A DNA stretch of 64,000 nt. Source: Streptomyces sp. (GTDB lineage: Bacteria; Actinomycetota; Actinomycetes; Streptomycetales; Streptomycetaceae). Both the position numbers and the translations under genes were made by a program. The notes below the pieces were generated by a model. That model did no database searches. It worked only from the letters and a program-made list of their open reading frames with translations, and was not told the origin of the DNA. Shown here piece after piece: positions 8,048 through 11,702 of the stretch. Location: contig NZ_JAPSKQ010000013.1 in NCBI RefSeq assembly GCF_031181555.1, positions 1 to 64,000 of the forward strand. Reading direction: 5' to 3'. Every line of letters starts with the position of its first letter. Within the stretch, counting starts at the first letter, position 1.

Positions 8048-8335
8048 TTACGAGGTGGCCGTCCCCCGGTGCTCCGCCGCGATGCCGAACCGCTGCTGTC
8101 CACGGGAGGCGGGTGTGGCCTCGCGGACGCCGGCGACCGTACTGATCACCTGCTCCTCCGCGGGCTCCTGGAGTTCCTGGAGCTCCTCGAGCCGTCGCAG
8201 GTCATCGGCGGACACGAGGGCGACGAGGGGCTTTCCGTGCCGGGTCACGACGACGCGTTCACCGCCGTACACCACCCGGTTGATCAGGTCGGCGAGCTCA
8301 GCCCTGGCTTGCGTCACCGGAATCTCGTAGGCCAT
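8048..8335 (-). CDS. Phd/YefM-family antitoxin, orphan
   Basis: A 95-residue protein with a typical Phd/YefM N-terminal DNA-binding domain: MAYEIPVTQARAELADLINRV, VVYGGERVVVTRHGKPLVALV and SADDLRRLEEL. The C-terminal tail (from about residue 60) is the part that normally wraps a RelE- or Doc-type toxin. No toxin gene adjoins it: downstream is a convergent permease, upstream a divergent ClpP-like gene. The tail is long and hydrophilic, as for antitoxins degraded by Clp proteases. Either its toxin is encoded elsewhere or it now works as a plain repressor. Confidence 0.88.
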   Translation of the reverse strand: MAYEIPVTQARAELADLINRVVYGGERVVVTRHGKPLVALVSADDLRRLEELQELQEPAEEQVISTVAGVREATPASRGQQRFGIAAEHRGTATS

Positions 8336-8361
8336 GCGTCCATCATAACGTCACGTACGTC

Positions 8362-8378
8362 CTGTACATTTTTTACAG
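8362..8378. promoter_or_regulatory. inverted repeat between antitoxin and clpP-like genes
   Basis: CTGTA and TACAG flank a 7-bp T-rich spacer (CATTTTT) in the 106-bp divergent promoter region, the most AT-rich patch nearby. The position suits autoregulation by the Phd/YefM protein. Function is inferred only. Confidence 0.4.
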
Positions 8379-8441: not shown

Positions 8442-9077
8442 ATGACCCGACCGTCCGCCCGCCACGTCCTGCCCGAGTTCACCGATCGCACGGCGTCCGG
8501 GCACCGGACGATGGATCCGTACTCGAAGCTGCTCCAGGAGCGGATCGTCCTTCTCGGGACCCGGATCGACGAGACCTCCGCGAACGACGTGATGGCCCAG
8601 TTCATGTACCTGGAGCACCAGGCACCGGACCGGGACGTCTCGCTCTACGTCAACTCCCCCGGCGGCTCGTTCCACGCCATGTCGGCGATCTACGACACGC
8701 TGCGCTACGTCACCTGCGACGTGGAGACGATCTGCCTCGGCCGGGCCGAGGGGACCGCCGCGCTGCTGCTCGCCGCCGGCACCCCGGGCAAGCGATTCGT
8801 GCTGCCCGGCGCCCGCCTGGTGCTCCGTCAGCCCGCCCTGACCGAGCCGGCACAGGGCCGGGCGAGCGATCTGGCGATCCGGGCGGAGGAGTTGGCCCGC
8901 ATCCGGTCCCGGATGGAGGAGATGCTCGTCCGGCACACGGGCCGCACCGCCGAACAGGTCCGGTCGGACATCGAGCGGGACACGGTCCTCGACGCGCGGG
9001 CGGCGGTGGACCACGGCCTGGCGGACCGGATCGTGCCCGGCCGCAGGGGCGTTCACCCCGCCACCGGCACGAGGTGA
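8442..9077 (+). CDS. ClpP-like protein lacking the catalytic Ser and His
   Basis: A 211-residue ClpP-fold protein aligning over its full length with actinobacterial ClpP2/ClpP3-type subunits: NPY-like [34 protein letters not shown] and [11 protein letters not shown]. At the nucleophile position the usual GQAAS is GRAEG, so Ser is replaced by Gly104. The usual IHQP is LRQP, so His is Arg129. The third residue is kept as Asp180 in IERD. It should therefore be proteolytically inactive and may act as a structural subunit in mixed Clp rings, like ClpR of plastids and cyanobacteria. The ATG at 8442 has GGAGGGG upstream. The small gene at 9085 follows after seven bases. Confidence 0.88.
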
Positions 9078-9084
9078 GCCGCCG

Positions 9085-9393
9085 ATGCTGCCACCGGAAC
9101 TGCCTCCCCTGCCCGCGCTGACCCGCGCGGAGGCCGAGTTGATCGACCGTTACCTCGAGGTCGTCGACCTGCTCGGCCGCATCAACCCCGCCGCGGACGG
9201 TGACACCTATCGCGGACTGCGCGCCGCACAGGCGCTGGTCGGCAAGGCCGTCGCGCTGCGCGACGCGCTGACCGTGATGCACCGGCGCGGCGAGACCGAA
9301 CTGCACTGCGCCACACTGGTCCGGGCGCTGCGGGTACTGGACGGCGAACGGCGCACCGCCCGGCTCACCCTGCCGCCGGACCCCGGCTGTTGA
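9085..9393 (+). CDS. small conserved-looking protein of unknown function, partner of the ClpP-like gene
   Basis: A 102-residue soluble protein starting at ATG 9085, seven bases after the clpP-like stop, with GAGGTG at 9069-9075. It is predicted mostly helical (AEAELIDRYLEVVDLLGRI, RAAQALVGKAVALRDALTV, ATLVRALRVLDGERR) with a Pro-rich start (LPPELPPLPAL). There is no signal peptide, membrane segment or recognised motif. Tight linkage suggests co-translation and a shared role with the ClpP-like protein, perhaps as an adaptor or subunit stabiliser. I do not recognise the family. Confidence 0.65.
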   Translation: MLPPELPPLPALTRAEAELIDRYLEVVDLLGRINPAADGDTYRGLRAAQALVGKAVALRDALTVMHRRGETELHCATLVRALRVLDGERRTARLTLPPDPGC

Positions 9394-10497: not shown

Positions 10498-11130
10498 ATG
10501 GCCGAGCACCGCCCCTGCACCGCGCGCAACGAGACCCCGCTGCGGCGCGCCGACCGCAACCTCGCCGGGCTGCTCCAGGAACTGCGGCCCACCCGGACGG
10601 GTGTGCAGATCCTCTTCGCCTTCCCGCTGTCGCTCGCGTTCACCTCACGCTTCGGCTCGCTCGACACGGTGCAGCGCGTCACCTGTGTCATCACCCTGCC
10701 GCTGGCCGTGCCCGCCGCCGCGCTGTTCACCGCGCCCGCCGCGCTGCACCGTTCGTTGTCCCAGCAGGGCGCCAGGCCGCGCACCGTGCGGGTTTCGTCG
10801 CGGCCGGCCGCGGCCGGCCGCGTGGTGCTGGTGTTCACGTCCAGCGGTTCGGTGCTGCTGGTGGTGGACGTGACGACCGGCGGGGCCGGGGGCATCGCCG
10901 CGGGAGCGGGCACCTTCGTCCTCTGTCTCGGCCTGTGGGGACTGCTCCCCCGGCTGGCGCGGCGCGTGACCCCGCAGCCGCGGGCGGAGGCCGCCGGGGC
11001 GGAGCCCGGGCCCCGCGGTGCCGCGTGGCCGTGCCGAAGCGGCCGCGGGCCGTTCACGCCGCGACGGCGTCTCGCCGGTCACCCCCTCGCGGTGACGGTC
11101 CCTACAGCTCCTGCCGGCCCGCCGCCGTGA
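10498..11130 (+). CDS. DUF6328-type integral membrane protein
   Basis: A 210-residue protein of unknown function. The core ETPLRRADRNLAGLLQELRPTRTGVQILFAFPLSLAF, then FGSLDTVQRVTC and FTAPAALHRSLSQQGARP, matches the DUF6328 family of actinobacterial membrane proteins with four predicted helices. The C-terminal ~50 residues (after LARRVTPQP) are low-complexity and rich in Pro, Gly and Ala. The stop overlaps the convergent ATPase gene by 29 bp, so the 3' end may be an extension of the usual frame. The ATG at 10498 lacks a strong ribosome site. Confidence 0.72.
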   Translation: MAEHRPCTARNETPLRRADRNLAGLLQELRPTRTGVQILFAFPLSLAFTSRFGSLDTVQRVTCVITLPLAVPAAALFTAPAALHRSLSQQGARPRTVRVSSRPAAAGRVVLVFTSSGSVLLVVDVTTGGAGGIAAGAGTFVLCLGLWGLLPRLARRVTPQPRAEAAGAEPGPRGAAWPCRSGRGPFTPRRRLAGHPLAVTVPTAPAGPPP

Positions 11131-11575
11131 CCGGTTCCGTGACCGGTTCCGCGACCGGGAGGGTCCACGGCAGTTCGACGGAGACGGTCTTGCCCCCCTC
11201 ACGCGTGGGGCGGACCCTGAGCCTCCCCCCGCATTCCGCGGTCAGGCAGCGGATGATGACCAGTCCGCGGCCGTTGTCCTGCTGGACCGCGGCGGGCAGC
11301 CGCTTGGGTAAGCGGGGATGGCTGTCGGTGACACCGACGTGCAACCGCTCGTCACGGTCGAGGACCACGTCCACCGTGAAGGTGGGTGACTGCCCCAGGG
11401 TGTGCTGTACGGCGTTGGTGGCGAGTTCGGAGACGATCAGCCGGACGGTGTCGGAGACGTCCGTGTCCGCCGGCATGCCCCACTCCGCCAGCATGTCCAC
11501 CACGTAGGCACGGGCCGCGGAGACCGAGGCGGGATCGCTCGGCAGAGTGACGGATGCTTCCAGATGGTCTGCCAT
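11102..11575 (-). CDS. anti-sigma-factor-like ATP-binding protein (RsbW/HATPase_c)
   Basis: A 157-residue single-domain GHKL ATPase like the many Streptomyces RsbW/SpoIIAB-type kinases. The N box is IVSELATNAVQHT, the G1 box GVTDSHPRLP and the G2 box QQDNGRGLVII. These proteins bind sigma factors or anti-anti-sigma factors. It is divergent from the XRE/DUF397 pair, a linkage common in streptomycetes and suggestive of a regulatory trio. The ATG 11575-11573 has GGGACG upstream at a generous distance. The C-terminus has a repeat VAEPVTEPVTAA. Confidence 0.85.
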   Translation of the reverse strand: MADHLEASVTLPSDPASVSAARAYVVDMLAEWGMPADTDVSDTVRLIVSELATNAVQHTLGQSPTFTVDVVLDRDERLHVGVTDSHPRLPKRLPAAVQQDNGRGLVIIRCLTAECGGRLRVRPTREGGKTVSVELPWTLPVAEPVTEPVTAAGRQEL

Positions 11576-11702
11576 GGCGACGTCGTCCCTTTCCCACGGG
11601 ACCGCAGCCCGACACGGAGCGGATGGTTCGAGTACGGTCCCGCACTGGTGCTTCGCCGCCAGACTGCCATCACCGCACGGCGCGGGGCGGCGATCCACCG
11701 GG

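Follow-up and report, generated by a model that had tools for sequence, protein, structure and literature searches.

The window, that is the whole 64,000-nucleotide stretch analysed (Streptomyces sp. assembly GCF_031181555.1, contig NZ_JAPSKQ010000013.1, positions 1 to 64,000), carries a gene for a ClpP-family protein, which is followed by a small gene on the same strand and preceded by a divergent gene related to Phd/YefM antitoxins. The name ClpPx is used here for the product of the open reading frame at 8442-9077 on the plus strand, and the small gene is referred to as the partner. The features of the locus are:

8048-8335, minus strand: Phd/YefM antitoxin-like gene, 95 amino acids, C-terminal RFGIAAEHR, divergent from clpPx
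8355-8378, plus strand: operator-like element GTACGTCCTGTACATTTTTTACAG, with two GTAC cores 9 bp apart and a TACAG half-site
8442-9077, plus strand: clpPx, ClpP2-type ring subunit of 211 amino acids, assigned from Pfam match, alignment, tree and model
8751-8753, 8826-8828 and 8979-8981, plus strand: codons of the ClpPx triad positions Gly104, Arg129 and Asp180
9078-9084, plus strand: spacer of 7 nt between the clpPx stop and the partner ATG
9085-9393, plus strand: partner gene, 102 amino acids, predicted helical, motif PALTxAE near the N terminus

An earlier note on this DNA had described clpPx and the partner, and its 7-bp gap and 102 residues are exact, the clpPx stop ending at 9077 and the partner ATG standing at 9085. 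Its picture was nevertheless incomplete, since the third, Phd/YefM-like gene and the operator-like element at 8355-8378 had been missed.

ClpPx matches Pfam CLP_protease (PF00574) with 208.6 bits, the cut-off being 20.2, and aligns with the Mtb ClpP2 chain 5dzk over 199 residues with zero gaps (E 2.9e-66). In this alignment the catalytic Ser falls on Gly104, the His on Arg129 and the Asp on Asp180, which is the assignment that the earlier note had made by eye; the intact Ser-His pair elsewhere that might have overturned it does not occur in the register of the Mtb ClpP2 alignment. At the same columns ClpP1, ClpP2 and ClpP3 of the same genome all read SHD. The window protein thus lacks the Ser-His-Asp set of an active serine protease. 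Its predicted fold is that of ClpP (model pLDDT 72) and aligns to ClpP structures with Z of about 26, among them 6nah_A (Z 26.4, 175 residues, 1.5 A) and S. hawaiiensis 8xon_I (Z 25.9, 183 residues, 2.9 A). ClpPx is 53% identical to ClpP2 and 43% to ClpP3 of its own genome, and in a 21-row tree a branch with 100/100 support splits the genome's own ClpP1 and ClpP3 from the ClpP2, ClpP4 and ClpPx rows. Judged by this tree and these identities, ClpPx is a ClpP2-type protein.

The source assembly (6.8 Mb, 87% complete) holds five ClpP-family genes, arranged as two adjacent pairs, which we named ClpP1P2 and ClpP3P4 from sequence type and order, and ClpPx as the sole singleton. By elimination, ClpPx is therefore probably the product of clpP5 of the Streptomyces literature, and the earlier statement that the locus belongs to no clear named system would then need correcting. 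The clpP5 gene of S. lividans is described as monocistronic (PMC9765437), which is at odds with the conserved second gene 3' of clpPx. The chromosomal copy of clpPx sits in a conserved region running from urease to biotin genes, outside any cluster.

To follow the triad through the genus, an even draw of 120 Streptomyces genomes, each at least 90% complete, was used. A full-length ClpPx reading frame is present in 95 of the 96 loci recovered; the remaining one (L108, ClpPx deleted) was left out of the counts of triad, tree, pocket, dN/dS and scaffold residues, and rows L177 and L187, which end about 10 residues early, were kept among the 95. Ser-His-Asp is intact in 35 of the 95, and in the other 60 one or more of the triad residues are missing, in 26 combinations, His being the commonest site (replaced by Gln, Arg, Ser or Glu). 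The earlier note had allowed for substitutions unique to this strain, a mark of decay; with 60/95 orthologues broken and the partner adjoining in 96/96 loci, this is not what we find. Its further question, whether the Gly/Arg replacements and the partner gene are conserved, is answered differently for the two, since the partner adjoins everywhere and the exact Gly/Arg pair is confined to near relatives (3/80 named loci, 5/25 order-search loci and 1/95 even-set rows). Because 35 orthologues still carry Ser-His-Asp, catalysis is optional in this family, the Gly/Arg pair being one of many breaks and not a single ancestral loss. A tree of ClpPx and partner, built from 96 rows (the 95 and the window) with the triad columns removed, requires at least 11 changes between the intact and the lost state, of which starred branches force 4, and one 34-row clade is entirely triad-lost with its reading frames still kept. 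A ClpPx-like gene (57% identity) in genome G009 (L211) has the triad ARE. The reading that ClpPx is an ordinary active accessory ClpP, the window copy being exceptional or using other residues, can appeal to the 35 intact orthologues as well as to the five cluster-type copies and the other-family copy described below; with triad residues lost tree-wide in 60/95, and no in-register Ser-His pair in the window copy, we regard it as very improbable.

Triads are intact in the ClpP1 (20/20), ClpP2 (20/20) and ClpP3 (30/30) controls, and ClpP4 has His replaced by Gly in 30/30 loci (L276-L305), with one also showing Asp to Glu and none of the 30 fully intact; these ClpP1-ClpP4 loci were taken from high-listed matches and are not a random draw. 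Streptomyces ClpP4 therefore resembles ClpPx in lying on the ClpP2 side and in having lost a triad residue, but differs in that the loss is uniform in the sample and that its operon mate is an intact ClpP3. The uniform His to Gly change suggests that each core may in general combine a catalytic subunit with a docking one. The ClpP3P4 operon is under PopR control (PMC9765437). The genome's own ClpP4 copy is L276, also found at L003:2079-2648, and the neighbouring ClpP3 is intact in all 30 loci, so that a well-studied operon includes a dead subunit. ClpP4 is present in 26/35 intact-triad and 16/61 lost-triad ClpPx rows (Fisher p 6e-6; the window is included among the 61 lost rows). A functional link of triad state with ClpP3P4 was considered and rejected, since the starred branches yield only 4 independent contrasts, on average 0.9 in the same direction, 0.1 in the opposite one and 3.0 with no difference; the association is treated as shared descent because these contrasts are too few.

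Asp25, Tyr69, Asn71, Gly74, Gly75, Gly139, Asp143, Glu150 and Arg153 are invariant in 61/61 lost rows. Arg179, which we take to be the ring-ring sensor arginine of other ClpPs, is kept in 60/61 and the adjoining Asp180 in 46/61. The retention of Arg179, like the model, bears out the earlier remark that fold motifs and oligomer contacts are intact. In S. hawaiiensis ClpP2hp an ATPase-docking pocket has been mutated at S94, Y96 and Y116 (PMC9765437); mapped by offset from the catalytic Ser, these correspond to Ser67, Tyr69 and Tyr89 of the window ClpPx. Over the 96 rows Ser67 is found in 74, Tyr69 in 96 and Tyr or Phe at position 89 in 82, the last position being looser among triad-lost rows. 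Median pairwise dN/dS, a crude Nei-Gojobori estimate (NG86) on GC-rich genes that is good for comparison only, is 0.44 for lost and 0.34 for intact ClpPx as against 0.13 for ClpP2, and 0.25-0.27 for the partner regardless of triad state. On these values and the invariant residues, ClpPx is under weaker constraint than ClpP2 yet not free, and its scaffold and ATPase-docking pocket are constrained while the triad is lost repeatedly.

The partner adjoins clpPx 3' on the same strand in 80/80 named Streptomyces loci, which are the best 80 of 431 relatives and hence biased to close ones, and lies directly downstream in 96/96 loci of the even draw. There the spacer is exactly 7 nt in 64/96 and 5-8 nt in 87/96, from which we infer that the two genes are translationally coupled. 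A partner homologue occurs in 100/120 even-draw genomes, 95 of them with a full-length ClpPx beside it and one with an internally deleted copy (G104). Of the remainder, G059, G084 and G103 show no ClpPx in the stretch fetched, and G015 has the cluster type only. In four of the 100 the partner lacks an intact ClpPx. A deleted or shortened ClpPx stands beside a partner reading frame in L108, L066, L120 and L135. Twenty of the 120 genomes have no partner match, and in 19 of these the best ClpP matches, among the matches listed, score no better than ClpP2 (E 1e-63 to 1e-69); the twentieth is G009, where the stretch 3' of the ClpPx-like gene reads N. In the order draw 110/145 genomes matched, all of the same genus, and the partner was not found in the other four genera of the draw by a single-sequence search. 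Five further genomes of that draw (G131, G147, G155, G202 and G222) have broken or partial sets, which speaks against the genes forming one module.

Such losses invite the view that clpPx is a dispensable paralogue under relaxed selection, heading for loss and kept by chance linkage. The erosion of the triad in 26 combinations and a dN/dS above that of ClpP2 would fit, as would the 20 genomes lacking a partner match (in 19 the listed ClpP matches reach ClpP2 level only), the deleted or shortened copies and the broken sets of the order draw. We nevertheless consider this unlikely given the full-length reading frame in 95/96 loci, scaffold residues invariant in every lost row, the 34-row lost clade that keeps its reading frames and an operator-like element found upstream of every clpPx inspected (see below).

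The partner itself gave no convincing match, only weak chance ones, in Pfam, NCBIfam, PHROGs, PADLOC or the PDB sequences. Its model has three helices at modest confidence (pLDDT 68), in line with the earlier description of it as helical, and the best structural matches of this model are unrelated helical hairpins (Z 8.7). Of 4560 row pairs, 4130 show stronger conservation of the partner than of ClpPx, the mean identities being 0.735 and 0.669.

The Phd-like protein of the window scores 54.3 bits against the YefM/Phd family PF02604 (cut-off 29.8), and its gene is present in 65/67 long named loci. The RFGIAAEHR stretch at its C terminus is conserved; the motif RFG[ILV] occurs near the C terminus in 198 of 217 sequences from overlapping locus sets. 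GTAC-N5-GTAC is found in 97/97 regions upstream of clpPx, the window and L108 being counted in. The 24-mer GTACGTCCTGTACATTTTTTACAG has one match in the 6.8-Mb assembly at up to 3 mismatches, and its reversed control none. A perfect TGTAC-N5-GTACA was tried as the definition of the operator and rejected; it gives 12 sites in the genome and, because the first arm in the window reads CGTAC, misses the window's own site, for which reason the longer 24-bp element was adopted. In some loci (e.g. L075) other DNA parts phd from clpPx, and by eye the element stays beside clpPx.

The palindromes bound by YefM of E. coli have TGTACA cores with a spacing of 12 bp (PMC7730913 and PMC3303803), and PMC3303803 names a pair of operator-contacting arginines, which R11 and R32 of the Phd-like protein match by eye. 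Family membership, these arginines and the GTAC-core element beside the gene are thus shared with the YefM/Phd type II antitoxins, from which the locus differs in its core spacing (9 bp instead of 12) and in having, in place of a toxin neighbour, the divergent clpPx-partner pair. The Phd-like gene is surrounded by genes for an ABC-2 membrane protein, a TetR protein, ClpPx and the partner, and no toxin family was matched among the seven other neighbour genes scanned. A cognate toxin in the same operon, which defines a type II system, is accordingly not seen here. The protein is probably a repressor of clpPx and the partner, to judge from its family and the element.

Alternatively, the partner might be the real effector, toxin-like or regulatory, held in check by the Phd-like protein, with ClpPx just turning over the antitoxin. 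A YefM/Phd-like gene with no recognised toxin, the stronger conservation of the partner and its occurrence without an intact ClpPx would all suit such an arrangement, and co-expression in E. coli of ClpX with some of the ClpPs of S. cattleya lowered the stability of RelB2, an antitoxin from that species (PMC4989188). The partner and the Phd-like gene are, however, on opposite strands, unlike the usual type II pairs, no toxin family was matched, and near the three partners that stand alone no Phd match is seen; we think the arrangement improbable.

A partner profile search of the class found it in 28/296 genomes, five of them outside the genus. In one, G502 of another family, a Phd-like gene, a ClpP with an intact triad and the partner occur together; in three genomes of family f17 the partner occurs with neither a ClpP nor a Phd match in the surrounding 5 kb or so, and the fifth is a fragment. 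The stand-alone partner homologues L241, L242 and L243 (58-60%), which come from an actinobacterial family other than that of Streptomyces, have no ClpP nearby; by eye LysR- and GNAT-type genes lie beside L242 and L243 and a GAF/histidine-kinase-like gene near L241.

A second type of locus was found in 5/392 Streptomyces genomes (L246, L252, L253, L210 and L309). Its ClpP is a ClpP2 duplicate, 81-86% identical to the genome's own ClpP2 and with Ser-His-Asp intact in 5/5, and the accompanying genes, Phd-like (60-67%) and partner (48-51%), are homologous to their counterparts at the ClpPx locus. The spacer between ClpP and partner is 55-110 nt in three of these loci. GTAC-N5-GTAC stands beside the Phd-like gene in all five as well as in G502. 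The best evidence that the Phd-like gene, the element and the partner form a set is that they accompany different ClpP2-type proteins. All five second-type loci are adjoined by thioesterase-like and PKS genes, the families being confirmed in part, and in the one locus read further NRPS and tailoring genes follow. RHH-Doc like toxin-antitoxin genes near the Phd-like gene of L244 were also considered, and looked by eye like separate pairs.

The PKS-linked loci raise the question of self-resistance, and tolerance to ClpP-active compounds through the ClpPx set is possible. ClpPx and partner could form a cassette that protects Clp against natural products directed at ClpP; a subunit with no reactive Ser-His pair might, for instance, escape trapping by covalent inhibitors, or it might pull the target ring out of drug-activated complexes. 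An extra ClpP is used or proposed for self-resistance in two known cases, ClpP-ADEP of S. hawaiiensis, which disrupts ADEP-activated ClpP1 complexes (PMC12607617), and mtaL of the MTA cluster, a clpP gene among those for the biosynthesis of metaze B, a ClpP inhibitor (PMC13386464). That in all five second-type loci the partner and Phd-like genes keep company with a duplicated ClpP2, next to genes for a thioesterase and a PKS, points the same way. In contrast to ClpP-ADEP, which is ClpP1-like and near its cluster, ClpPx is of the ClpP2 kind, and its gene belongs to the conserved chromosomal stretch from urease to biotin genes and to no cluster; moreover, all five cluster-type ClpPs keep Ser-His-Asp, so that triad loss is not needed in them. 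As an account of clpPx this is a possibility to be kept in mind, and one that we would not favour.

Two parts of the general picture, the existence of the gene and the idea of a dead subunit in a Clp core, are already known. ClpR of cyanobacteria and plastids is a catalytically dead ring subunit of a mixed ClpP core and carries an insertion in the protein body relative to ClpP. The loss of catalytic residues in the window ClpPx and in 60/95 orthologues is reminiscent of it. In ClpPx, however, the loss is not fixed, the lineage is a different one and the gap-free 199-residue alignment to Mtb ClpP2 leaves no room for such an insertion; for the last two reasons ClpPx is not a ClpR. The earlier proposal of a regulatory subunit analogous to ClpR is supported in part, as regards a triad-less ClpP fold with a conserved scaffold, a tightly linked conserved gene and a structural or regulatory ring role, which would fit. 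A closer comparison is Streptomyces ClpP2, which lies on the same side of the tree as ClpPx, has a similar docking pocket and can dispense with its Ser in the housekeeping core (PMC9765437), but which has SHD in all 20 controls, is 53% identical and is paired with ClpP1.

We favour, at a probability of about 0.55, the reading that clpPx and the partner form an operon under a toxin-less YefM/Phd-type repressor, and that it supplies a catalysis-optional, ATPase-docking ClpPx together with a small cofactor. In ClpP1P2 of S. hawaiiensis and S. lividans only the Ser of ClpP1 is needed and ClpP2 docks the ATPases (PMC9765437), so that a ClpP2-type subunit can afford to lose its triad; the uniform His to Gly change in ClpP4 agrees with this. 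We infer that ClpPx pairs with ClpP1, docks ATPases and binds the partner. A ClpPx ring would stack on a catalytic ring of ClpP1, or of ClpP3 where present, in the manner of ClpP2 in the housekeeping ClpP1P2 core, and offer ClpX or ClpC a different docking face, whereby the same catalytic ring could differ in its specificity or in its sensitivity to inhibitors. As a cofactor, the partner would perhaps assist the assembly or docking of ClpP2-type rings, and the Phd/YefM-like protein would repress both the operon and itself through the element.

Several observations run against this reading. ClpPx evolves faster than ClpP2, and position 89 is looser in lost rows; some partners occur alone or with no intact ClpPx, some sets are broken or partial, and second-type spacers are longer in three loci; the GTAC spacing differs from that of yefM, and clpP5 of S. 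lividans is called monocistronic (PMC9765437).

Since proteases commonly degrade antitoxins, the amount of ClpPx could depend on Clp or Lon activity through a labile Phd-like protein, and given also the lower stability of RelB2 when ClpPs are co-expressed with ClpX, a feedback between Clp activity and the clpPx operon is plausible by analogy. More speculatively, and we put it forward as a tentative idea with the odds against it, the three genes might constitute a protease switch, in which a Clp-labile, toxin-less antitoxin represses an alternative, catalysis-optional docking ring and its cofactor; as part of the core genome in most Streptomyces the set would re-tune ClpP1 under stress or in the face of neighbours' ClpP-active products, and PKS clusters would have acquired it, with a fresh ClpP2 copy at its centre, for self-protection.

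An operon for an extra, triad-eroded ring subunit in most sampled Streptomyces may represent an overlooked means of re-tuning Clp. With a triad-optional ClpP2-side subunit, a conserved partner whose family is undescribed, and a probable repressor and operator, its role is now testable. The second-type PKS loci are candidate clusters for ClpP-active products, and the PKS-linked copies (5/392 genomes) may help to recognise other clusters with products that possibly target Clp. A literature search, in which subscription journals were thinly covered and which is hence weak evidence of absence, found nothing on the erosion of the triad, on the family of the partner, on a Phd-like gene and element at a clpP locus or on the ClpP4 change, and no paper on SCO1237-SCO1239. 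A HATPase-type gene at 11102-11629 on the minus strand of the window accompanies clpPx in 66/67 long loci; perhaps, as a guess, it is the SspH/SCO1241 regulator of PMC9137472.
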